This document shows positions 4,108 to 19,042 of a stretch of 38,087 nt of DNA, piece by piece (within the stretch, counting starts at the first letter, position 1; each line of letters opens with the position of its first letter). Under the pieces are notes generated by a model that worked only from the letters and a program-made list of their open reading frames with translations, searched no databases and had not been told where the DNA came from. The DNA is taken from positions 1 through 38,087 of the forward strand of contig JAMOMQ010000099.1 of assembly GCA_027066995.1 (NCBI GenBank). Reading direction: 5' to 3'. A program made the position numbers and the translations under genes. Source of the DNA: Flavobacteriales bacterium (GTDB lineage Bacteria > Bacteroidota > Bacteroidia > Flavobacteriales > Flavobacteriaceae).

Positions 4108-5412
4108 ATGAAAGTAAAAAATCAATCAAAAAATATCAATATCATTACTTTGGGTTGCTCCAAAAATGTTTATGACAGTGAAAACTTAATGGGGCAGTTG
4201 CAATACAACGGGTATAAGGTAACTCATAATGCCGATAAAGGTGATATTGTCATCATCAATACCTGTGGTTTTATACATGATGCCAAGCAAGAATCTATTG
4301 ATACCATTTTAGCGGCCATCAATGACAAACAAAACGGTCGTATTGAAAAAGTATATGTAACCGGTTGTTTAAGCGAACGTTACAAAAAAGAATTGCCGGA
4401 AGAAATTCCGGAAGTTGATCAATATTTTGGCACGCACGACATGATTAATCTGCTGCAAGAATTTGGTGTGGACTACAAACACGAATTGATTGGTGAACGC
4501 AAATTGACCACGCCTACACATTATGCCTATCTGAAAATATCCGAAGGCTGTGACCGGTCTTGTTCGTTTTGTGCCATTCCGATGATAAGAGGCAAACATA
4601 TTTCGCGTAGCATAGAAAGTCTGGTTTTAGAAGCCGAAAAATTAGCAGCCAAAGGAGTTAAGGAACTAATTTTAATTGCCCAAGACTTGACTTTTTACGG
4701 ATTGGATATCTATGGAGAAAGGCGACTAAATGATTTATTAAAGGCATTGGTAAAAGTTGACGGTATAGAATGGATACGTTTGCACTATGCTTTTCCCACC
4801 GGATTTCCGGAAGAAGTTATTGAAACCATTGCCCAAGAAGATAAGATTTGTAATTATATGGATATTCCTTTGCAACATATCAACAATGATATCCTTAAGT
4901 CAATGCGCCGGGGACATACGCGTCAAAAAACGGAAGATTTAATTCGTAAACTGCGACAACAGGTGCCTGATGTGGCAATCCGGACGACTTTGATAGTCGG
5001 TTATCCGGGCGAAACCGAAGAAAAATTTGAAGAACTCAAACAATGGGTTGCCGATACCCAATTTGACCGTTTGGGTGTTTTTACCTATTCTCATGAAGAA
5101 AATACACATGCCGGAAAATTAATCGATGATGTTCCCGAAGCGGTAAAACAACAAAGGGTAGAAGAAATTATGAATTTGCAAAGCCAAATCTCTTTTGACA
5201 AAAACAGACAAAAAATCGGTAAAATATATAAATGTATTTTTGACCGAAAAGAGGGCAACTACTATGTAGGCAGAACCGAATATGACAGTCCCGAAGTAGA
5301 TAACGAAGTTTTGGTTGATGCTACACAATACCCGATTGAAATTGGCAAATTTATCAATATAAAAATTACTGATGCACAGGAGTTTGATTTATATGGCATA
5401 CCTTTTAAATAA
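4108..5412 (+). CDS. rimO: Ribosomal protein S12 methylthiotransferase RimO
   Basis: A radical-SAM enzyme that adds a methylthio group to an aspartate of ribosomal protein S12. The 434-residue sequence has the N-terminal UPF0004 domain with three cysteines (C17 in LGCSKN, C53 in NTCGF, C87 in VTGCLSE) that should bind the second iron-sulfur cluster. The radical-SAM motif CDRSCSFCAIP has C148, C152 and C155, and a C-terminal TRAM-type region follows (about 370-434). LGCSKN and SFCAIP fit RimO better than MiaB. The start ATG is 21 nt after a good -7 box. It is followed after only 7 nt by the gene for a secreted protein, probably on the same transcript. Confidence 0.95.
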   Translation: MKVKNQSKNINIITLGCSKNVYDSENLMGQLQYNGYKVTHNADKGDIVIINTCGFIHDAKQESIDTILAAINDKQNGRIEKVYVTGCLSERYKKELPEEIPEVDQYFGTHDMINLLQEFGVDYKHELIGERKLTTPTHYAYLKISEGCDRSCSFCAIPMIRGKHISRSIESLVLEAEKLAAKGVKELILIAQDLTFYGLDIYGERRLNDLLKALVKVDGIEWIRLHYAFPTGFPEEVIETIAQEDKICNYMDIPLQHINNDILKSMRRGHTRQKTEDLIRKLRQQVPDVAIRTTLIVGYPGETEEKFEELKQWVADTQFDRLGVFTYSHEENTHAGKLIDDVPEAVKQQRVEEIMNLQSQISFDKNRQKIGKIYKCIFDRKEGNYYVGRTEYDSPEVDNEVLVDATQYPIEIGKFINIKITDAQEFDLYGIPFK

Positions 5413-8320: not shown

Positions 8321-9403
8321 ATGAAAAAGCCTAAACATAAATCAGCTTTAACAGAAGTGTCCGGTGTGCCGGATACCCCGAGGCTTAATCCGTCACTGAC
8401 AAAGCGTGGATTGAAAAAACGGGTGTTGCCGGATTTGAACTTATTGGTCAAACAATTAATGTCAGGCGATAAAATAGCTTTAAGCCGTGCTATTACATTA
8501 ATTGAAAGCAGTCACCCCAAGCATTTTGCTTTGGGACAAGAGGTGGTTAAAAAGTGTTTGCCTTATGCCGGCCAATCGGTGCGCATTGGAGTTACCGGTG
8601 TGCCGGGCGTTGGCAAAAGCACCTTTATAGAAAGCTTGGGGCGGTATTATACAAAGCAAGGTCATAAAGTGGCGGTTTTGGCTATTGATCCAAGTAGTAG
8701 TTTGTCAAAGGGGAGTATATTGGGAGATAAAACACGGATGGAACTATTGTCTCGAGATGACAATGCTTATATCCGGCCCAGTCCTTCCGGCAATCACTTG
8801 GGAGGGGTCGCCCGAAAAACGAGAGAAACCATTTTGTTGTGCGAAGCGGCAGGTTTTGACAGGATTATAATTGAAACCGTAGGCGTTGGACAGTCGGAAA
8901 CTATGGTGCATTCTATGGTTGATTTCTTTTTGTTATTAAAACTTGCCGGTGCCGGTGACGAGTTACAAGGTATCAAGCGCGGGATAATAGAAATGGCAGA
9001 TCTTATTGTTATTAATAAAGCCGAAGGGGACAATTTGCAGCCAGCCCGTTTGGCCAAAAAAGCTTTTGAAACCGCTTTGCATTTTTATCCGCCCAAGCCG
9101 GGTGGTTGGATGCCCAAAGTGATGCTGGCAAGTGCATTATATCAAGAGGGTATTGTTGATGTTGCCAATGTAATTAATGCTTATATCGAGCAGATGCAAA
9201 ATAATGATTTTTTTAAAGAGAACAGAATGGAACAAAATAAGTTTTGGCTTTATGAAACCATTAATCAAACCTTACAAAACCGTTTTTTTGAAGATGAAAA
9301 GACAAAAATGTTATTGGCAGATTTGATAAAAAAAATAGAAAATAACCAAATTACAGCTTTTGAAGCTGCCGAAATTTTACTAAATTCGACCTTGCAAAAA
9401 TAA
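8321..9403 (+). CDS. meaB: MeaB-type GTPase (methylmalonyl-CoA mutase chaperone)
   Basis: A P-loop GTPase of the MeaB/ArgK (MMAA) family that guards and reloads the B12-dependent methylmalonyl-CoA mutase. At 360 residues it has the Walker A motif GVPGVGKST (about 95-103), IDPSSSLSKGSILGDKTRM (about 125-143), ETVGVGQSE (about 187-195) with the switch region, and the guanine-specificity motif NKAEGD. The first 45 residues (SALTEVSGV, then NPSLTKRGLKKR) form the N-terminal extension seen in Bacteroidota members. No mutase subunit lies in the window, so its partner must be elsewhere. It is followed 8 nt later by a small membrane-protein gene. The promoter match upstream (TTTG then TAAATTTA) is only fair. 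Confidence 0.92.
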   Translation: MKKPKHKSALTEVSGVPDTPRLNPSLTKRGLKKRVLPDLNLLVKQLMSGDKIALSRAITLIESSHPKHFALGQEVVKKCLPYAGQSVRIGVTGVPGVGKSTFIESLGRYYTKQGHKVAVLAIDPSSSLSKGSILGDKTRMELLSRDDNAYIRPSPSGNHLGGVARKTRETILLCEAAGFDRIIIETVGVGQSETMVHSMVDFFLLLKLAGAGDELQGIKRGIIEMADLIVINKAEGDNLQPARLAKKAFETALHFYPPKPGGWMPKVMLASALYQEGIVDVANVINAYIEQMQNNDFFKENRMEQNKFWLYETINQTLQNRFFEDEKTKMLLADLIKKIENNQITAFEAAEILLNSTLQK

Positions 9404-9411
9404 AAGCATAG

Positions 9412-10089
9412 ATGAGTTTTTTTAGAAGAAATTTGATAGATATAGCTATATTTACTTTAGTTCAATATTTTTTTACTACATTGGTATTAATGTATTTATA
9501 TGAAGGGGGTAATGCTTTAAACGCGCAAACAGCGTCCTATGTTTTTGATTTGAACTATTTAAGTGATTTAGGGCGTGTAGTATTTTATAACGGCATGGAC
9601 AACCCCTTTTGGTTATTTTATTCTTTGAGTATGTTGTTGATTGGTGTCGGGGTAGTTTTTTATTTTTATTTAACCGGATTTTTAATCAATCATAAGTTGG
9701 TAAGAAAATTAATACTTTTCTTAGGTATTCTTTCAGGTTTAGGTTATGCAGCTATAGGTTTCTTTCCTGTAGATGTTAGTTTTGCAAATCATATAAAGGC
9801 CGGTATGTTGGCTTATTACGGTTTTATTTTAGCCCAATTGTTATTGACCTTTTTTATAAATAAAGATCAATATCGCGTTATTTTTTACTTGTTGGTTTTT
9901 CTTAACATACTTTTATTATTAAGATTTGTTCTTTATTATCTTATAAAAGATATGGATATTTCGGCAATATCACTGTTGCAAATAAAAACCATATATCAAA
10001 AAATATTGGTATATGGGCAAGTGTTTGTTGTGCTGGGAATACTAATACGTATTAAAAAAAGGCGTATTAAGCTTCATTCATATTCTTAA
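9412..10089 (+). CDS. Six-helix membrane protein, DUF998-like
   Basis: A 225-residue hydrophobic protein with about six membrane helices (near residues 12-30, 61-83, 97-117, 125-147, 150-170 and 195-212). I do not recognise a precise family. The arrangement and the short motif GFFPVDVSFANHIKAG resemble DUF998/Frag1-type proteins, which carry a conserved FP(x)n-H motif. It begins 8 nt after meaB stops, so the two are probably cotranscribed, but that does not define a function. The basic tail IRIKKRRIKLHS suggests a cytoplasmic C-terminus. Confidence 0.65.
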   Translation: MSFFRRNLIDIAIFTLVQYFFTTLVLMYLYEGGNALNAQTASYVFDLNYLSDLGRVVFYNGMDNPFWLFYSLSMLLIGVGVVFYFYLTGFLINHKLVRKLILFLGILSGLGYAAIGFFPVDVSFANHIKAGMLAYYGFILAQLLLTFFINKDQYRVIFYLLVFLNILLLLRFVLYYLIKDMDISAISLLQIKTIYQKILVYGQVFVVLGILIRIKKRRIKLHSYS

Positions 10090-10271
10090 TTTGTTTGCGT
10101 CCTTTTATGTTTTATTATAGTAGCTAAAAACTTCCCTGAGGTATGCAACAGGTATTTCACCACTTTAAGTTATAGTTGTTTTATATAATTATGAATTTGG
10201 TAATATAAAATTACTATACAAATCATTTTATTAAATGAAACTTTTTATCTTGCCATCCGAAAATTTGATTG

Positions 10272-12272
10272 ATGAATATGAAATATTTTTGGACATTTTT
10301 ATCTTGGTTTATTGTGTGGTTTGCAGATGCACAAAATCAAAATAAAGCAGGTGATGAATTGCTTGACACATTACAAATAGTTACTCATGGTATTTCAAAC
10401 ACCATGCAACGTCTGCCCAAAACAATCCGTGTGATAAAGGCACGTGATATACAACAAAGCGCTGTAGAAAGTATTGATGATGTTTTGAATTTAGTAGCCG
10501 GCATCGATATGAGAAGTCGCGGTAGTAAAGGGGTGCAATCTGACATCAGTATTCGTGGCGGTAATTTTGACCAGGTATTGGTATTGCTTAACGGTGTCAG
10601 GCTTAATAATCCCCAAACCGGACATCATGTTTTGGATTTGCCTATTGATTTGAGCATGATAGACCGTATCGAAATTTTGGAAGGCGCCTCCGGGCAGAGT
10701 TTTGGAGTCAATGCTTACAGCGGGGCTATTAATTTTATTACTAAAAAACCGGAGCATGAACAGGCTTATACCCAATTTAACGCAGGCCAATATAATTATT
10801 TGAAAACCGATTTCGGCTTGTCGCACCGGTTAGGAAAAATTTCGGTTTATAACGGATTTACCTATCAAAGATCCGGTGGGTATTTAACTAATACGGATAT
10901 CAACAACACCGATTTTTATACTATTAAGGATTTTGTCAATTTGCATTTTGACCATGAACGCTTTCCATTGAACCTACAAGCCGGTTACCATCAGAAAGAT
11001 TTTGGCGCCAATAGTTTCTATACGGCCAAATATCCTTGGCAGTTTGAAAAAACTCATGGTTATTTTATCAGTCTGTTTACTAAAACAGGCAAAAAATTTG
11101 TGCTTAAACCGGAAGTGCATTATAAATTGCATTATGATGAGTTTCAACTGTTTAGAGAGAGTGTTTACCAATATCGCAATGGCTTTTTTATTCATGATAA
11201 GGATACGGCACAATATGCTCCGGGAGTGTATTACAAAGGGCATAATTATCATAAAACACAAAATGCCGGTGGCGGATTGAATATGAGCATTGTATCAAAA
11301 TATGGTCATACTTATATCAATTTAAGTATTGAGAACGAGCGTATTTGGAGTAATAAATTAGGAGAAGATTTACCTGAACCTATCAGAGTTGATCAAAGAA
11401 TTGTCTATACCAAATCGGATAGTCGCACATATTTCGAAGCGCAGTTAAACCAAGTCAAGCAATGGCAAAAAATAGCGATTGGCGCCGGTTTAAATGTATT
11501 ATATAGCCGTCAATATGATTTGCAAATGAGCGGTGGTGCTTATATTAACTATCGTCAAGCACACATGACACATTATTTTAATATCAATTCAGCCTACCGG
11601 TTGCCCACTTTTACGGATTTGTATTATCAAGGACCGGCCAATATGGGCAATCCTGCCTTGCAACCTGAGCAGGCTGTAACTTACGAATTGGGAACCAAAT
11701 ATTTTGACCTGCAAAATTATATTACAGCCGCTGTTTTTTTGAGAAATGCCAATAATACGATTGACTGGATTAAATACCGGGTTAAGGACAAATGGCAACC
11801 GCAAAATTTAACCCGCTTGCAAACTTACGGTTTAGAAGTATCGTGGAAACACCGTTTTAACAAAGGCTTTATCAAAAAAGCCGCTTTATCTTATGCTTTT
11901 TTGTATATGGAAAAGGGTGACAACGAGCAAGTTATCTCAAAATATGTTTTAGATTATTTAAAACATAAATTTAATATATCACTTTCACACCGGTTTTTGT
12001 TTGATACAAATTTGCAATGGACGGCTGTTTATAAAAATCGTGAAGGTCAATATTTGAACTATATCGACAATCAATACCGCTTGTTTGATTATAAACCTTA
12101 TGCTGTTGTCAATTTAAAACTCAATAAAGAAATCGGCAAAAGCCGTTTGGGATTGTCTATTGAAAATCTTTTTGATGTAAAATACAATGATTTGTCCTAT
12201 GTGCAAATGCCGGGCAGATGGATAATTTTTGAATGGCGCTACCGGATTATACCAAAACGACATACAAATTAG
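10272..12272 (+). CDS. TonB-dependent outer-membrane receptor, BtuB-sized
   Basis: From the ATG at 10272 this is 666 residues; the track starts one codon earlier at a TTG. A signal peptide (MNMKYFWTFLSWFIVWFADA) is cut before QNQNK. The plug domain spans about 40-155 and includes TIRVIKARDIQQSAVESIDD, ISIRGGNFDQVLVLLNGVRL and IEILEGASGQSFGVNAYSG. A beta-barrel follows and ends in an aromatic-rich strand (WIIFEWRYRI). The N-terminal carboxypeptidase-like domain of SusC proteins is absent and no SusD gene is near, so this is a small-ligand type (siderophore, cobalamin or similar). Proximity to meaB, a B12-enzyme chaperone, hints at cobalamin, but I saw no cobalamin riboswitch. A 182-bp AT-rich spacer precedes it with only short hairpins. 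Confidence 0.9.
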   Translation: MNMKYFWTFLSWFIVWFADAQNQNKAGDELLDTLQIVTHGISNTMQRLPKTIRVIKARDIQQSAVESIDDVLNLVAGIDMRSRGSKGVQSDISIRGGNFDQVLVLLNGVRLNNPQTGHHVLDLPIDLSMIDRIEILEGASGQSFGVNAYSGAINFITKKPEHEQAYTQFNAGQYNYLKTDFGLSHRLGKISVYNGFTYQRSGGYLTNTDINNTDFYTIKDFVNLHFDHERFPLNLQAGYHQKDFGANSFYTAKYPWQFEKTHGYFISLFTKTGKKFVLKPEVHYKLHYDEFQLFRESVYQYRNGFFIHDKDTAQYAPGVYYKGHNYHKTQNAGGGLNMSIVSKYGHTYINLSIENERIWSNKLGEDLPEPIRVDQRIVYTKSDSRTYFEAQLNQVKQWQKIAIGAGLNVLYSRQYDLQMSGGAYINYRQAHMTHYFNINSAYRLPTFTDLYYQGPANMGNPALQPEQAVTYELGTKYFDLQNYITAAVFLRNANNTIDWIKYRVKDKWQPQNLTRLQTYGLEVSWKHRFNKGFIKKAALSYAFLYMEKGDNEQVISKYVLDYLKHKFNISLSHRFLFDTNLQWTAVYKNREGQYLNYIDNQYRLFDYKPYAVVNLKLNKEIGKSRLGLSIENLFDVKYNDLSYVQMPGRWIIFEWRYRIIPKRHTN

Positions 12273-12297
12273 TTCAATATTTCGTTTCTTTTTGGTA

Positions 12298-12780
12298 TTA
12301 AAAAATTTTTTTGAACAAACCGCTTTTTAAGCAGACCTCTTTAAAAGTTTCAATAGGGGTTTCATGTCCCATATCGTATTCATAAATTTTATGAGGAATT
12401 TGCCATTTGTTTAAAAGTAATTTGGTAGTGACCGGAGGTATAATCTCATCTTTGATGCCTATACTGATATGATGCATGCTATCGCCGGCCATTAAACGAT
12501 TGTCCGGTTTAATAATATTAGTCATAATTAGAGCAGGATTGAGCAAAATGGTCGGTATATGATAATATTGTCCCAAATGAAAAGCCATATAGCCTCCCAT
12601 ACTACTACCGATAATCACTTGTGGCCGGTATCGTCGCACCAAATGATCCAGATATTGAAATGTAGCAGGTAAATTTTTATATGAAACCAAGGGGTGAAAC
12701 AGTTTGCCGTATTGTTGCAACCAAGCGGTGCGGTCATTGACATTGGTGCTATTGAGTCCGTGTAAATATAAATTGATCAT
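12298..12780 (-). CDS. YqiA-like alpha/beta-hydrolase esterase
   Basis: A 160-residue compact alpha/beta hydrolase. The start MINLYLHGLNS is typical of the UPF0227/YqiA group, the nucleophile elbow is GSSMGG (S60), and the likely triad partners are D111 (GIKDEIIPP) and H139 (DMGHETP). Family members show esterase activity in vitro on small acyl substrates; the natural substrate is not known. Its ATG overlaps the waaA stop by 4 nt (ATGA), so it is translationally coupled to waaA. It converges on the TonB receptor gene with a 25-nt gap. Confidence 0.8.
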   Translation of the reverse strand: MINLYLHGLNSTNVNDRTAWLQQYGKLFHPLVSYKNLPATFQYLDHLVRRYRPQVIIGSSMGGYMAFHLGQYYHIPTILLNPALIMTNIIKPDNRLMAGDSMHHISIGIKDEIIPPVTTKLLLNKWQIPHKIYEYDMGHETPIETFKEVCLKSGLFKKIF

Positions 12781-14012
12781 TGTTGATTTTTTAAATAACG
12801 GATAATTTTTTCAGTAGCACCTATATTTTTCAGAGCATAGGTTTTAGTAGTGGATGCTTTTTTTGTTCTTAAATGGTCATTTTGCCATAGCTGATCCAAT
12901 ATTTTTTTTAATGAATTGTAATCCGTTACGGTTATTAGTCCTCCTAATTTTTTTAAATCGACGGCTTCATTAAATTTTTGAATATGCGGGCCCGTAATGA
13001 TAGGAACGCCATAGACGGCGGGTTCTTGTATATTATGAATGCTTTTACCAAAGCCGTTGCCTATATAAACAATATCGGCATAGTGGTAAGTTTTGTTAAG
13101 CAAACCGATGGTGTTTAAAATAAGAACATCGTAGCTTGATAAATCAGTTTCCGCTTTAATATCTGTATAGCGAATGGCTTTTTTTTTCAATTGTTTTAAA
13201 ATGCCGTTTACATGTGCATCATCTACTTCGTGGGGAGCAATAACGGTTTTAAAATCATGGGATGCCGTATTGATATACGGAACTAAAATTTTTTCATCGG
13301 ACGGCCAGGTGCTTCCGGCTACCAGTAACTTTTGATTATTTTTAAATCTTTTTACAAAATCTAAAGAATCAGTTTGTTGTGCAATTTGATGCACGCGGTC
13401 AAACCGTGTATCACCTGTTATACTTATATTTTCAAATCCTTGATCCTGCAAGGCTTGTTTTGATACTTGGTCTTGCACAAAAAAATGATGAAAGGCTTTA
13501 AGCGATTGTCGTAACCACGACCATTTAAAAAAAGAATGGTTGGTTTTGAATAATCCCGAAATAAGATAAACCGGAATTTGTCGTTTTTGTAATTCGTATA
13601 AATAGTTGGGCCACAAGTCGTATTTGGTAAAAAAGACCATAACGGGATTAATGGTGTCAATAAATTTTTTAGCATTGGCACGGGTATCTATTGGTAAATA
13701 CACAACACAACCGGCCGGTGTTTTATCTTTTTTTATTTCATAGCCCGAAGGGGAAAAGAAACTCAAAACTATTTGATGATTGCCAAATTCTTTTTTAATA
13801 GCTTCCATAACAGGCAAGGCTTGTTCATATTCGCCAAGCGAAGAGACATGAAACCAAATAACGGGTTTATCTTTTTGTAAACATTGGTTTAACCGGCTGA
13901 ATACTTGTTGTTGCCCGACTTTAAAAAAATGCACTTTAGAACCAAAAAAATTTCCGAAAACCTTTAAAAGATTTTCGGAAATGGTCAATGCTATATTATA
14001 TAATGATTTCAT
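12777..14012 (-). CDS. waaA: 3-deoxy-D-manno-octulosonic acid (Kdo) transferase
   Basis: Transfers Kdo to lipid IVA at the inner membrane during lipopolysaccharide assembly (GT30). I start at the ATG at 14012 (MKSLYNIALTISENLL, 411 residues); the track adds three codons from a TTG. The sequence shows the catalytic glutamate E61 in HVSSLGEYEQA, then YLISGLFKTNHSF, AGSTWPSDEK, IAPHEVDDAHV and YIGNGFGKSIHNIQEP. The N-terminal stretch is hydrophobic enough to act as a membrane anchor. It lies 22 nt downstream of dnaN and overlaps the esterase gene by 4 nt. Codons 11-23 form a strong hairpin plus T-run, which may limit read-through from dnaN. Confidence 0.94.
   Translation of the reverse strand: MKSLYNIALTISENLLKVFGNFFGSKVHFFKVGQQQVFSRLNQCLQKDKPVIWFHVSSLGEYEQALPVMEAIKKEFGNHQIVLSFFSPSGYEIKKDKTPAGCVVYLPIDTRANAKKFIDTINPVMVFFTKYDLWPNYLYELQKRQIPVYLISGLFKTNHSFFKWSWLRQSLKAFHHFFVQDQVSKQALQDQGFENISITGDTRFDRVHQIAQQTDSLDFVKRFKNNQKLLVAGSTWPSDEKILVPYINTASHDFKTVIAPHEVDDAHVNGILKQLKKKAIRYTDIKAETDLSSYDVLILNTIGLLNKTYHYADIVYIGNGFGKSIHNIQEPAVYGVPIITGPHIQKFNEAVDLKKLGGLITVTDYNSLKKILDQLWQNDHLRTKKASTTKTYALKNIGATEKIIRYLKNQQ
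13944..13982 (-). terminator. Terminator-like hairpin inside the 5' end of waaA
   Basis: On the minus strand the arms starting ATTTCCGAAAA and ending TTTTCGGAAAT (13972-13982 and 13950-13960) are perfect over 11 bp. The loop adds four more pairs, one of them U-G, giving a 15-bp stem with a UUA loop, followed directly by TTTTTT. It starts 30 nt after the waaA ATG, inside coding sequence. The shape is that of an intrinsic terminator in the direction of dnaN-waaA transcription. Confidence 0.6.
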
Positions 14013-14034
14013 TAAGTGCAATAAGAAATCCGGT

Positions 14035-15150
14035 TTAGTTTAGCATCAAAGGCATAACAAGCATGGTGACAAATTCGCCTTCTTCCAATCCGTCCATGGG
14101 ATGGATTAAAGCGGCTTTACTGGGAACCGACATATTGAGTGATATTTCGTCCGAATCCAAATTGGATAACATTTCTATTAAAAATTTGGAATTGAACCCG
14201 ATAGACATGTCATCACCTTGAAAATTACAAGTCATGCGTTCTTCGGCTTTGTTAGAAAAGTCTAAATCTTCGGCCGATACTTTTAATTCCGAACCGGCAA
14301 TATCCAAGCGAATCAAATGGGTGGCTTTATTGGCAAAAATAGCAATCCGTTTGACTACATTGAGCAGGTTCTGACGGTCTGCTACCAAAACATTAGGATT
14401 TTCGGTAGGAATAACAGCACGATAATTGGGATACTGACCGTTAATCAATCTTGATAGAAGTTGTATATTATCAAAATTAAATTTGACATTACGATCATCA
14501 TAGGTGATAGTAACATCATCATCGGTGCCAACAATATAATTTTTTAAAATTTGCAAGGGCTTTTTGGGAACGATAAATTGCGTTTCGCCGTCGGCTTTTA
14601 AATCTTGACGTTCGTATTTGACCAATTTATGGGCGTCGGTAGCAACAAAGTTTAAGCCCTCGGGTGAAAACTCGAATAAAATACCGGTCATAGTCGGGCG
14701 CAACTCGTCATTGCTAGTGGCAAAAATGGTTTTACTGACGGCATCAGCCAATACACCCGATGGCATTGACAGGCTGTCGGCTTCTTCCATTTCAACCGGC
14801 TTGGGATAATCTTCGGCGTCGGCGTATGCAAAGCTGTATTTGCCCGTTTCGCTGATGATGTCCATGGTGTTATTGTCGTTGAACATAAATGTTAAGGGTT
14901 GTACCGGAAGGGCCTTGATGGTATCAACCAGCATGCGAGCCGGTAATAAAAATTTACCGCTTTCTGTAGATTCTACAGGCACAGTTGCCGTCATGGTAGT
15001 TTCCAAGTCTGAGGCGGTAATTTTTAATGAATTGTTATTCAGTTCAAATAAAAAGTTGTCTAAAACCGGAATGGTATTGTTATTATTGATTACATTTCGT
15101 AATGCTTGTAAATTTTTGATTAATTCGTCACTTGATACTAAAAATTGCAT
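14035..15150 (-). CDS. dnaN: DNA polymerase III beta subunit (sliding clamp)
   Basis: The ring-shaped clamp that tethers polymerase III to DNA. The track ORF has an N-terminal extension; the true start is the ATG at 15150 (MQFLVSSDELIKNLQAL), giving 371 residues, the normal length. Three clamp domains of about 120 residues each are recognisable, with family blocks such as TTMTATVPVES, DAVSKTIFATSNDELRPTM, TGILFEF, SRLINGQYPNYRAVIP and the C-terminal MLVMPLMLN. It is not beside dnaA or recF here, but heads a run with waaA and a YqiA-like esterase. Its promoter has an exact -7 box. Confidence 0.97.
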   Translation of the reverse strand: MQFLVSSDELIKNLQALRNVINNNNTIPVLDNFLFELNNNSLKITASDLETTMTATVPVESTESGKFLLPARMLVDTIKALPVQPLTFMFNDNNTMDIISETGKYSFAYADAEDYPKPVEMEEADSLSMPSGVLADAVSKTIFATSNDELRPTMTGILFEFSPEGLNFVATDAHKLVKYERQDLKADGETQFIVPKKPLQILKNYIVGTDDDVTITYDDRNVKFNFDNIQLLSRLINGQYPNYRAVIPTENPNVLVADRQNLLNVVKRIAIFANKATHLIRLDIAGSELKVSAEDLDFSNKAEERMTCNFQGDDMSIGFNSKFLIEMLSNLDSDEISLNMSVPSKAALIHPMDGLEEGEFVTMLVMPLMLN

Positions 15151-15170
15151 AGTTTTATTTTTTTCAATAA

Positions 15171-15204
15171 CAAAAATACGAATTATTTTTTTATTAAATG
15201 CCAA
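15171..15204 (-). promoter_or_regulatory. dnaN promoter
   Basis: On the minus strand TTG (15202-15204) and TATTTTTG (15171-15178) are 23 nt apart, with an exact -7 consensus 20 nt before the dnaN ATG. The spacing is at the long end of the usual range. Confidence 0.5.
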
Positions 15205-15222
15205 TTATTCATTAATCAAAAC

Positions 15223-15251
15223 TTCGTTTAAAGAAATTAATCTTAAATTTG
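15223..15251 (+). promoter_or_regulatory. galE promoter
   Basis: TAAATTTG (15244-15251) matches the -7 consensus and lies 31 nt before the galE ATG. TTCG (15223-15226), one mismatch from TTTG, is 17 nt upstream. AATTTG-TTTG-CAAATT forms a small 6-bp palindrome over the box. Confidence 0.45.
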
Positions 15252-15282
15252 TTTGCAAATTAATTGATACAAAAAAACGTAT

Positions 15283-16317
15283 ATGAAAATATTGGTAACC
15301 GGCGGATTGGGTTTTATAGGATCGCATACCGTGGTAGAACTGCAACATAAAGGTTATGAGGTGGTTATTATTGATAACTTGTCTAATTCTACCATAGAAG
15401 TTTTGGATGGTATTGCTAAAATTACCGGCATTCGTCCCGAATTTCATCAAATAGACTTGCGTGATAAGCCGGCAGTCATTCAATTTTTTAAGTCCCAGCC
15501 CGATTTGCAGGGAGTGATACATTTTGCGGCTTCGAAAGCGGTAGGCGAAAGTTTGCAAAAACCACTATTGTATTATGAAAACAATATCAATACGCTGGTT
15601 TATATTTTGCAACAAATGCAAGCGCATCAAATTTCCAATTTTATTTTCAGCTCGTCTTGCACCGTTTATGGAGAGCCCGACAAATTGCCCATTACCGAAG
15701 AAGAAACGGTAAAACCGGCACTGTCACCTTATGGCAATACCAAACAAATTGGTGAAGAAATTATTCGTGATACCACTCATGCTTATCCGGAAATGAAAGC
15801 CATTGCCTTGCGTTATTTCAATCCTATTGGAGCCCATCCTTCTGCACATATTGGAGAATTGCCCAATGGTGTGCCGCAAAATTTGATTCCTTTTGTAACA
15901 CAAACAGCTATAGGCATCAGAGAGGAATTATCCGTTTTTGGAGACGATTATCCCACCGAAGACGGTACTGCCATTAGAGATTATATTCATGTGGTTGATT
16001 TGGCACAATCACATGTAGTGGCTATGGAAAGACTGTTGCAAAACAAAAATAAATCTAATTATGAGATATTTAATATCGGCACCGGACGTGGCAGTTCGGT
16101 TATGGAAATTATCAAAGCCTTTGAAAAAGTAAATAAGGTAAAACTCAACTACAAAATTGTTGACCGGCGTCCCGGTGATGTAACGGCCGTTTGGGCAGAT
16201 ACAAGCCTTGCTGCTTCAGAATTGGGGTGGCAATCTAAGCTCACTATGGAAGATGCTCTTAGAGATGCTTGGAAATGGCAACAAAAATTAGATGAGGCTG
16301 AGGGCAACAAAGTATAA
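15283..16317 (+). CDS. galE: UDP-glucose 4-epimerase
   Basis: A short-chain dehydrogenase-type enzyme that interconverts UDP-glucose and UDP-galactose. The 344-residue protein begins with the NAD-binding motif GGLGFIGSH (about 7-15), has FSSSCTVYG (about 122-130), and the catalytic pair Y150 and K154 in SPYGNTK. GTAIRDYIHVVDLA and IFNIGTGRGSSVMEI are typical of GalE; VDRRPGDV is near the C-terminus. It is divergent from dnaN and probably a single transcription unit, since the next gene has its own -7 box. It supplies sugar nucleotides for surface polysaccharide; action on UDP-GlcNAc cannot be excluded. Confidence 0.95.
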   Translation: MKILVTGGLGFIGSHTVVELQHKGYEVVIIDNLSNSTIEVLDGIAKITGIRPEFHQIDLRDKPAVIQFFKSQPDLQGVIHFAASKAVGESLQKPLLYYENNINTLVYILQQMQAHQISNFIFSSSCTVYGEPDKLPITEEETVKPALSPYGNTKQIGEEIIRDTTHAYPEMKAIALRYFNPIGAHPSAHIGELPNGVPQNLIPFVTQTAIGIREELSVFGDDYPTEDGTAIRDYIHVVDLAQSHVVAMERLLQNKNKSNYEIFNIGTGRGSSVMEIIKAFEKVNKVKLNYKIVDRRPGDVTAVWADTSLAASELGWQSKLTMEDALRDAWKWQQKLDEAEGNKV

Positions 16318-16398
16318 ATTAATGCTATTTGCGACTGGTGTAACTAAAATGCTTGTATTTCTGTATAAAAAGTCACTAATGATATAGACTTAAAATGC

Positions 16399-16406
16399 TA
16401 CTTTTG
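16399..16406 (+). promoter_or_regulatory. -7 box for the FAD oxidoreductase gene (TACTTTTG)
   Basis: TACTTTTG matches TAnnTTTG exactly and ends 13 nt before the ATG at 16420. No clear -33 box is seen. Confidence 0.4.
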
Positions 16407-16419
16407 AAAAAAATTATTT

Positions 16420-17463
16420 ATGTACGATTATATCCTTGTTGGCTTTGGGGTAGCCGGTTTTTCTTTTATGCAACAACTGGAAGAAAACCGTCAAAATTTC
16501 ATTGTTTTTGACAACCAATCCCAACAATCGACACGCATTGCAGGCGGCATGTTTAACCCTATTATTTTAAAACGTTTTACACCGGCTTGGCAAGCGGCCG
16601 AAATGTTGCCTTATGCCTTATTGCAATTTCAAAAAGCCGAACTGGCATATCAAAATAAATACATTCATTACATAGATATTTACCGTAAACTTACCTCTGT
16701 TGAAGAGCAAAATAATTGGGTTGTTGCTTCTGATAAACCGGTAATGCGCGACTTTATGCAGCCTATTAGTTTTGAAAAAATTGACGGCATTGCTGCACCT
16801 TTTGGTTTTGGTATTTTAAAAGGCACCGGTATTGTTAATGTTAACCGGCTTTTAGATGATGCTTTGTATGGGTTGCAACAAACCGGAAAATTGCGTAAGG
16901 AAAAATTTGATTATAGTCAACTTCAAATTACTTCGGATTTTGTGCAATATAAAGATATCAAAGCCCGCAAAATAGTCTTTGCCGAAGGCTACGGTTTGCA
17001 TCACAATCCGTTTTTTAACCATTTGCCGCTGATGGGCACCAAAGGTGAAATGCTTATGATAGAAACAGATGCCGAAATACCTTATATAGTCAAATCAAAT
17101 GTTTTTATAGCTCCTAATGTAGCTAAAAAAGGACAGTATTATGTAGGAGCAACCTATAATTGGGAAGATAAAACCAATACACCGACAGCTGAGGCTAGAA
17201 AACATTTAAAAGAAAAATTGGGACAATTGCTTCAAAAACCTTTTAAAATAGTTTTGCAAAAAGCCGGTATCAGGCCTACCGTTATTGACCGGCGTCCATT
17301 GGTGGGTGTGCATCCAAACTATAATAATTTGGGCGTATTAAACGGAATGGGCACCCGCGGGGTTATATTGGCGCCTACAACCGCAAAACAATTATTTAAA
17401 CATATGACATTTGGCATGCCTTTACCTAAAGAAATTGATATTAAACGCTTTGAAAAGAATTAG
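16420..17463 (+). CDS. FAD-dependent oxidoreductase of the DAO family
   Basis: A 347-residue flavoprotein. It opens with the Rossmann motif VGFGVAGFSFMQQL (G8, G10, G13) and an acidic end of strand 2 (IVFDNQ), and ends with GIRPTVIDRRPLVGVHP and GMGTRGVILAPTTAKQL, the C-terminal FAD-contact block of D-amino-acid-oxidase-like enzymes. RIAGGMFNPIILKRFTPAW near residue 40 is typical of a Bacteroidota subgroup annotated only as NAD(P)/FAD-dependent oxidoreductase. The substrate is unknown; MnmC-type tRNA modification or amine oxidation are both conceivable. No signal peptide, so it is cytoplasmic. It converges on the Nudix gene with a 36-nt gap. Confidence 0.8.
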   Translation: MYDYILVGFGVAGFSFMQQLEENRQNFIVFDNQSQQSTRIAGGMFNPIILKRFTPAWQAAEMLPYALLQFQKAELAYQNKYIHYIDIYRKLTSVEEQNNWVVASDKPVMRDFMQPISFEKIDGIAAPFGFGILKGTGIVNVNRLLDDALYGLQQTGKLRKEKFDYSQLQITSDFVQYKDIKARKIVFAEGYGLHHNPFFNHLPLMGTKGEMLMIETDAEIPYIVKSNVFIAPNVAKKGQYYVGATYNWEDKTNTPTAEARKHLKEKLGQLLQKPFKIVLQKAGIRPTVIDRRPLVGVHPNYNNLGVLNGMGTRGVILAPTTAKQLFKHMTFGMPLPKEIDIKRFEKN

Positions 17464-17499
17464 AAAATAAAATTTATAGCTTTAGAAGTGGTTGTGAAG

Positions 17500-18105
17500 T
17501 TATCTTTTCAATTGATTTAGATCGGAAAATAACAATTTGATATTTTCATAGGAGTTATGCAAGGGTAAATCATCGTTTTTGATATCAAGCCATTCCACCC
17601 GTTCAATGCCTTCTTCTGTCTGTGGTATTAATGGACTTTTCTCTTGTTCACTCATTTTATACCAATGCGTTATTTTTAAGCGTTTCTTTTTATTTTCGGT
17701 AAACAAATGATAAGTGTCTAATAAAAAATGTTCAATTTTAATATTTTGAATGCCACATTCTTCTTTAACCTCTCTAATGGCAGTTTCATCGGGGGATTCT
17801 CCTTTTTCCATTTTACCTTTGGGTAAGTCCCATTTACCGTTACGATAAATAAACAGATATTTTTTTTCATCATTTTCTACTATTCCACCGGCAGCTTCAA
17901 TCACATCAAAATGGGTTTGAAATTGCTGCCAAGCCTCTTCTATTTTAGGATGATATAAAAAAACTTCAGGTAAGATATTGGTCTGTAATTTATTGATAAT
18001 GTCATCTAAATCAATAGATGAAAAGGCGTAAACATTAGTTTTGCTTTCATTAAGGTTGTCCGTTATGGTAATAGCTTTATCAAAGATGTAAACTTTATAG
18101 GACAT
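17500..18105 (-). CDS. Nudix hydrolase with N-terminal extension
   Basis: A 201-residue protein whose Nudix box is perfect: G97 to I119, GKMEKGESPDETAIREVKEE followed by CGI, fitting Gx5Ex7REUxEExGU. FIYRNGKWDLPKG before it is common in Nudix enzymes acting on nucleotide diphosphates. The first 65 residues (MSYKVYIFDKAITITDN onward) form a separate alpha/beta segment, which I do not recognise beyond its frequent presence in Bacteroidota Nudix proteins. The substrate is unknown. It follows rpe on the same strand after a 141-bp gap, but has its own -7 box inside a perfect 13-bp palindrome. Confidence 0.88.
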   Translation of the reverse strand: MSYKVYIFDKAITITDNLNESKTNVYAFSSIDLDDIINKLQTNILPEVFLYHPKIEEAWQQFQTHFDVIEAAGGIVENDEKKYLFIYRNGKWDLPKGKMEKGESPDETAIREVKEECGIQNIKIEHFLLDTYHLFTENKKKRLKITHWYKMSEQEKSPLIPQTEEGIERVEWLDIKNDDLPLHNSYENIKLLFSDLNQLKR

Positions 18106-18107
18106 AA

Positions 18108-18143
18108 CTCTTAATTTATTCTACAAATTTAATAAATTAAGAG
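18108..18143 (-). promoter_or_regulatory. Perfect 13-bp palindrome enclosing a -7 box before the Nudix gene
   Basis: The arms CTCTTAATTTATT (18108-18120) and AATAAATTAAGAG (18131-18143) are exact reverse complements around a 10-nt spacer. The spacer and first arm base contain, on the minus strand, TAAATTTG (18124-18131), an exact -7 box. The palindrome ends 2 nt before the ATG. No T-run follows in the gene's direction, so an operator is likelier than a terminator; a 5' hairpin is the alternative. Confidence 0.6.
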
Positions 18144-18246
18144 CAATAATAAAACCTATTTATGTTAAAACTTGAATCGTTTTAATTACTCATCTGATTG
18201 TCAAATAGTTGAGTTTTAACAATTTGCAATTGTTTTTAAAAGATGC

Positions 18247-18915
18247 TTATTGCTCAAAATATTTTAAATTTCTAATAGCTTTAAGTGGATTATCATGATT
18301 AAATATATAGCTGGCTGCTACTAAAATGTCGGCGCCTGCCGCAAACAATTTTGGAGCATTTTGATCGTTGACACCCCCATCTACTTCAATCATGGCTTTG
18401 GAACCGGAAGCTTCTATTAGGTTTTTGGCTTCATATATTTTGTCATAGGTATGTTCAATAAATTTTTGTCCGCTGTATCCCGGATTGACCGACATGATTA
18501 ATACTAAATCCAAATCGGCAATAATATCTTTTAATAAATTTACAGGCGTATGCGGATTAAGAGCGACACCGGCTTTCATACCGATTTTTTTTATCAAATC
18601 AATAGTGCGGTTCAAATGCACCTGGGTTTCATAATGCACTGTCAGGACATCTACTCCAATAACTTTAAAATTGTGAATATAGCGTTCAGGTTGCTCAATC
18701 ATCAAATGGGCATCAAAAACTTTATTGGTCAATTTGCGCAAGCTTTTAATCACAGGCATGCCAAAACTGATATTGGGGACAAAATTACCATCCATCACAT
18801 CCAAATGAATCCATTCGGCTTCACTTTGATTGAGCATTTTAAAAGTTTTTTCCATATCTGCAAAATCAGCAGATAAAATTGACGGCGCAATAATCGGTGT
18901 GTTCATAACAGTCAT
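18247..18915 (-). CDS. rpe: Ribulose-phosphate 3-epimerase
   Basis: Interconverts ribulose-5-phosphate and xylulose-5-phosphate in the pentose phosphate pathway. The 222-residue TIM barrel shows APSILSADFADM, the metal-site block HLDVMDGNFVPNISFG, HLMIEQPERYI, MSVNPGYSGQKF and IEVDGGVN. Two in-frame ATGs exist, at 18915 and 18906; either gives a normal protein and I keep the longer. TATTTTCG at 18930-18937 (minus strand) is one base off the -7 consensus. The 141 bp downstream hold a 9-bp inverted repeat GTTAAAACT/AGTTTTAAC and the Nudix promoter palindrome. Confidence 0.96.
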   Translation of the reverse strand: MTVMNTPIIAPSILSADFADMEKTFKMLNQSEAEWIHLDVMDGNFVPNISFGMPVIKSLRKLTNKVFDAHLMIEQPERYIHNFKVIGVDVLTVHYETQVHLNRTIDLIKKIGMKAGVALNPHTPVNLLKDIIADLDLVLIMSVNPGYSGQKFIEHTYDKIYEAKNLIEASGSKAMIEVDGGVNDQNAPKLFAAGADILVAASYIFNHDNPLKAIRNLKYFEQ

Positions 18916-18971
18916 TTGTTTTGTTATTGCGAAAATAATAATTAAAAAATAGTTTGGGTATAATTTTTGCT

Positions 18972-18979
18972 TATTTTTG
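18972..18979 (+). promoter_or_regulatory. -7 box for the glmU-glmS unit (TATTTTTG)
   Basis: TATTTTTG matches the consensus exactly; TTTG at 18953-18956 lies 15 nt upstream, slightly short for a -33 box. The predicted leader is about 57 nt, with no recognisable riboswitch. Confidence 0.45.
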
Positions 18980-19042
18980 TAATATCATTGCATTTGTAGA
19001 TAAAAAATACATTAACCGTAAAAAATATCCTGTTTTCTATCG

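Follow-up and report, generated by a model that had tools for sequence, protein, structure and literature searches.

A terminator-like hairpin conserved within the first codons of waaA, with counterparts in other second cistrons of the same flavobacterial genus

The first codons of waaA encode a hairpin and U tract that are conserved across a genus of Flavobacteriaceae. In the window (the whole 38,087-nt stretch of DNA analyzed here, from contig JAMOMQ010000099.1 of assembly GCA_027066995.1), this element lies just past dnaN. Its RNA structure, its U tract, and its placement are all conserved within the genus. We consider it probable that the element serves dnaN as an intrinsic terminator that is carried by the next cistron, is leaky, may be relieved by ribosomes, and lowers waaA, and that the same layout is reused elsewhere in the genus. 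The evidence is best read as the use, across the genus, of partial intrinsic terminators that lie within the early codons of second cistrons and would lower, and possibly gate by translation, the expression of the downstream gene. Searches for terminators usually focus on intergenic DNA and tend to discount hairpins that fall within genes, whereas here the layout is kept at four unrelated gene pairs.

The hairpin sits in a run of three genes on the minus strand. The upstream gene, dnaN (14035..15153; stop codon at 14037-14035), encodes a 372-amino-acid sliding clamp (PF00712, PF02767, and PF02768). After a 22-nt gap that contains no other terminator (14013..14034; genus range, 10-35 nt) comes waaA (12777..14012), which encodes a 411-amino-acid Kdo transferase (PF04413, E = 2.3e-42) and holds the hairpin within its first 23 codons. 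NCBIfam Kdo transferase models match WaaA below cut-off only. The third gene, a UPF0227 esterase-like gene (12298..12780; PF05728), overlaps the end of waaA and is present in 12 of 13 genomes; unlike these 12, locus L090 (G003:C40) is missing this gene while retaining dnaN, waaA, and the hairpin. The family matches, including all three beta-clamp domains, bear out the gene identities of the original prediction. No Bacteroidota-type promoter (TAnnTTTG) was found in the 300 nt upstream of waaA in the 13 genomes.

The waaA hairpin has the geometry of an intrinsic terminator. Structures composed of a hairpin and a U tract end transcription by RNA polymerase. On the minus strand, positions 13982-13950 read ATTTCCGAAAATCTT-TTA-AAGGTTTTCGGAAAT, and TTTTTT follows directly at 13949-13944. 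From the 5′ arm onward, the 15-bp stem comprises 11 Watson-Crick pairs, U·G, C-G, U-A, and U-A, of which four are G-C pairs in total, and it is closed by a UUA loop. The stem begins 30 nt inside the gene (ATG at 14012) and occupies codons 11-21, while the six U, or seven with the last stem base, fall in codons 22-23. The stem with its single U·G pair, the loop, the U tract, the 30-nt offset, and the 22-nt gap between the genes are thus exactly as originally predicted. The small share of G-C pairs, 4 of 15, speaks against a terminator, while the folding energy of -15.6 kcal/mol beats that of 64% of the intergenic terminators in one congener. The 131-nt region around it has a folding z of -4.1, and none of 200 shuffles was equally stable. 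Of 2,000 recodings that preserved the WaaA protein sequence and followed codon usage, only 2 reached the same stability. Positions 9000-19000 hold 12 terminator-like sites against 7.9 expected, the waaA site having the longest stem. The 33-nt hairpin sequence has a chance expectation of 0.00 in the window at ≤3 mismatches, and the palindrome occurs once in the window's genome. An Rfam search of the hairpin returned nothing above the gathering score (top match, 27.3 bits against 86, to an unrelated microRNA family). In single-sequence folds of the waaA loci, we noticed no conserved alternative pairing that could act as an antiterminator.

The hairpin lies within the coding sequence of waaA. We rejected a mis-called start, in which the true start would follow the hairpin: the residues before the stem (LYN...) align with WaaA of other genera, and there is no Met just downstream of the hairpin. 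The start had been judged correct in the original prediction, and this holds. The start codon is apparently TTG in 7 of the 13 genomes (L002, L003, and L006-L010), which would fit weak translation of waaA. Codons 4-7 (TTATAYAATATA) show more conservation than is needed; within codons 5-7 (window positions 14000-13992, minus strand), all 13 genomes encode Ile7 with ATA rather than with ATT, the Ile codon used most often.

Synonymous conservation within the genus peaks at the stem and U tract. Our sample comprised 13 genomes of the genus, two of which are named as metagenome assemblies, while the rest also look fragmented. The adjacency of dnaN and waaA, the hairpin, and the seven U are found at the same codons in all 13, at WaaA identities of 53-91% (58-67% between the window protein and the others). 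The 19-mer TTTTCGGAAATTTTTTTGG, which spans the 3′ arm and the U tract, has one copy in each genome, always in waaA. Synonymous identity in the 13-codon window starting at codon 11 is 0.886, against 0.499 expected from codon usage and a mean over the gene of 0.557, and codons 11-23 are its maximum along waaA. All 13 genomes use TTC for Phe19, which lies in the stem, and TTT for Phe22 and Phe23, which lie in the U tract.

Variation in the stem is sparse and mostly compatible with pairing. In two genomes, A-U becomes G·U at two pairs. The pair between codons 14 and 18 is G-C in eight genomes, U·G in three, A-U in one, and an A·C mismatch in one, these changes arising through nonsynonymous Lys/Asn and Leu/Val/Phe replacements. 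Non-pairing cells amount to 2 of 156 in the alignment, and L003 and L010 have one inner-stem mismatch each. The pairing is therefore kept in relatives, as the original prediction had proposed to check. Because 7 of the 12 core pairs never vary, covariation evidence at waaA is thin, and the argument rests on the profile of synonymous conservation and on the unvarying U tract. Codon resampling gives stability z values of -2.5 to -4.6 in every genus genome and pair-count P values of 0.0001-0.13 per genome; conserved amino acids account for part of the pairing. A dual use of this segment, as coding sequence and as RNA structure, had been proposed in the original prediction and is well supported by the pairing retained in all 13 genomes.

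The hairpin inside waaA is most likely the dnaN terminator, now carried by the adjacent coding sequence. We examined 28 readable dnaN loci from sister genera and found an ordinary intergenic terminator after the gene in every case (25 called by script, with stems from +26 to +96 past the stop codon, and 3 by eye). In all 13 genomes of the genus, dnaN has a single such element in its vicinity, namely the waaA hairpin, at a distance of 40-65 nt from the dnaN stop. This suggests that the waaA hairpin replaces the terminator found in sister genera. The original prediction that this is "not simply the dnaN terminator" was misleading in this respect; in other respects that prediction is largely right. 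Like the ordinary dnaN terminators of sister Flavobacteriaceae, the element is a hairpin with a U tract less than 100 nt past the dnaN stop; it differs from them in lying wholly within the codons of the next gene, where it is under both protein and RNA constraint. Intergenic terminators in the genus have a median stop-to-stem distance of 23 nt, shorter than the 40-65 nt found here, which counts against this explanation. In other genera of the family, waaA was examined at 17 loci (L014-L030), none of which has the hairpin or an upstream dnaN. The N-terminus of WaaA in the genus (LYN... LL ... K) retains the ancestral form but is longer by about one residue and includes an FGNFFG segment that is new. 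Given this gain, the protein seems to have adapted to the presence of the RNA signal.

Embedded hairpins with U tracts recur in three other second cistrons of the genus. The lptC element was found by scanning 289 kb of the window's genome, and those of rimM and a PAP2 phosphatase by scanning 1.86 Mb of one congener; for each, all recovered close orthologs within the genus were compared (11-12 loci each). The names of the upstream partners (rpsP, a TPR gene, and a Met-gamma-lyase-like gene) were read from translations without a family search. In the window's genome, lptC (G000:C9:4644-5219, minus strand; PF06835, TIGR04409) starts 4 nt past the TPR gene in a coaX-OMP-TPR-lptC run. Its hairpin (near 5183) has a 16-bp stem followed by six U, lies in the signal-peptide codons, and is present in 12/12 genus loci (L127-L138). 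Both sides of the stem change at four pairs (9 cells), and the covariation score was reached in 0/500 shuffles, shuffle significance being overstated because the sequences are related. The rimM gene (G000:C33:9783-10310 in the window's genome; genus loci L239-L250) lies directly after rpsP, and its stem of 15-17 bp at codons 37-50, 105 nt into the gene, precedes eight U. This hairpin occurs at 12/12 loci in 11 genomes, with both-side changes at three pairs. The PAP2 gene (G000:C162:11128-11676 in the window's genome; genus loci L251-L261), whose upstream partner is the Met-gamma-lyase-like gene, has a hairpin at about codons 17-27 with five or six U in 11/11 close orthologs. All 110 of its 110 stem cells are paired, with both-side changes at two pairs, and the U tract is kept despite residue changes (DNF, DSF, DMF, and DAF). 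These three hairpins are unrelated in sequence to that of waaA, and all three exceed synonymous recodings in stability (z about -3 to -6.6). The second cistrons with an embedded hairpin start about 0-50 nt past the upstream stop.

We propose that these elements reduce transcription of the second gene unless it is being translated. Once RNA polymerase has passed dnaN, the hairpin would form about 50-85 nt beyond the stop, and polymerase would pause on the U tract. Some transcripts would end at the hairpin as dnaN-only mRNA, while the remainder would extend into waaA and the esterase gene. A ribosome that had initiated on waaA and was close behind polymerase would melt the stem. As the stem occupies codons that such a ribosome would melt, termination should peak when waaA is untranslated. 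The outcome would be waaA expression that is low and translation-sensitive relative to dnaN. Every waaA message, from any promoter, passes the site; thus, the terminator must be leaky or suppressible. The stem lies within the translated frame, downstream of a start codon conserved by homology, and hence in a position accessible to ribosomes. The same layout would operate at least at rpsP>rimM, the TPR gene>lptC, and the Met-gamma-lyase-like gene>PAP2, and the pairing of a ribosomal protein with an assembly factor at rpsP>rimM fits dosage control. We infer termination, leakiness, and the ribosome gate from sequence and position, and the gate, taken alone, is the least certain step, standing just short of an even chance. 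That translation of the second gene is the antitermination signal in a genus-wide layout of four or more pairs, with the protein reshaped to keep the RNA signal, is a more tentative proposal. If true, transcription would proceed only where the downstream message is under translation. The waaA hairpin and its conserved counterparts, of which there are at least three, suggest a common mechanism by which the dose of a second cistron is set, and with it a simple route to unequal doses of adjacent genes in a compact genome.

Parts of this scheme are known already, namely intergenic partial terminators, ribosome-relieved leader terminators, and ORF-internal 3′ ends. In E. coli, ribosomes suppress intrinsic terminators, and hairpin formation can be prevented by a ribosome that follows polymerase closely (PMC5021804). 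The attenuator of the pyr leader (pyrL) is likewise a terminator hairpin that a close ribosome can prevent (PMC5021804); it sits within a leader peptide that precedes the gene under control, whereas the waaA terminator would lie inside the regulated gene and after another gene. The available portions of reports on E. coli (PMC7815308) and Borrelia (PMC10319736) describe 3′ ends inside coding sequence that have intrinsic-terminator scores. Those ends come from 3′-end mapping, and no set kept by covariation in the 5′ codons of second cistrons is described in these portions. Our literature search, of incomplete coverage, found no report of covariation-kept, genus-wide embedded terminators in such codons.

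The main rival to a translation-gated terminator is a plain partial terminator. Here, the element would set a fixed dnaN:waaA (and rpsP:rimM) ratio with no ribosome gate, and its position in the reading frame would be a by-product of genome compaction. We regard this as a serious possibility, though on balance a doubtful one. Internal terminators in intergenic regions set the stoichiometry of ABC transporters in cellulolytic clostridia, and these resemble the waaA case in that a partial terminator separates a first gene of high abundance from a second of lower abundance (PMC9045158). The clostridial terminators differ in being described between genes, in gaps that mostly exceed 50 bp, and not within codons (PMC9045158). 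A congener of the window's genome has 644 of 1,124 tandem gene pairs ≤50 nt apart, leaving little room between genes, and the rimM hairpin, at 105 nt into its gene, is distant from the start codon. However, the waaA message passes the site during translation of its early codons, such that a ribosome effect is hard to avoid if the two processes are coupled. The signal also costs protein sequence, yet gaps of 50-100 nt exist elsewhere in the genome.

Two further alternatives, both improbable, would give the hairpin a role other than termination. The first is a stabilizer or processing site at the mRNA 3′ end, which would act as a barrier to 3′ exonuclease for dnaN mRNA. Stable hairpins generally protect 3′ ends, and, according to the available portion of the E. 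coli report, processing is the source of many ORF-internal 3′ ends in other bacteria (PMC7815308). The U tract, which is needed for termination only, is nevertheless kept in all four genes, and in PAP2 it persists while residues vary (N/S/M/A). The second alternative, which we rate as equally improbable, is a translation-control element in which the stem slows early elongation on waaA or alters initiation. Its location within the first 23 codons and the TTG starts in 7/13 genomes, which suggest low translation, are in keeping with such a role. It accounts poorly for a stem that leaves out the start codon and first 10 codons of waaA, for the position of the rimM hairpin at codons 37-50, and for the U tract after every stem.

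A DNA palindrome (a protein site or a dispersed repeat such as an uptake sequence) or programmed transcriptional slippage is very improbable: the core TTTCCGAAAA...TTTTCGGAAA is perfect, and slippage sites, too, combine a hairpin with a T7 run directly after it, but the palindrome is single copy per genome, its U tract is one-sided, the G·U-compatible variation breaks DNA symmetry, the other embedded hairpins are unrelated in sequence, and the frames shifted at T7 end after 0-48 codons and are not conserved. Least credible of all is a chance outcome of amino acid conservation and AT-rich codon usage, for although codon resampling alone gives pair-count P values of 0.02-0.13 in some genomes, synonymous sites are invariant over 13 genomes precisely at the stem and U tract, the stability excess recurs in every genome, and the hairpin is absent from sister genera.

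A survey of one congener points to additional candidate embedded terminators. We applied a strict terminator test to gene 5′ ends defined by simple codon-usage calls, and it matched 10 of 1,557 5′ ends against 0 of 1,143 mid-gene windows; recodings gave 0-6 matches (mean, 2.5). One survey match, at G001 C13:134397, was set aside because its start was probably mis-called ahead of an ordinary intergenic terminator, which leaves nine of the ten. The strict test misses lptC, because the lptC stem is imperfect in this congener. A permissive version of the survey returned many weak matches with no same-strand excess, and the strict survey was used instead. An alpha/beta-hydrolase gene has a 12-14 bp hairpin and U tract in its 5′ codons at L264 (G001:C12:186257) and L265 (G010:C36:6264); as it was found in G001 and G010 only, we rejected it as a genus-wide element. 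Further candidate 5′-end terminators in G001, at C4:27161, C12:66012 (minus strand), C2:21494, and C2:28740, include a NifU-like gene, a VanZ-like gene after gcvH, and two others.
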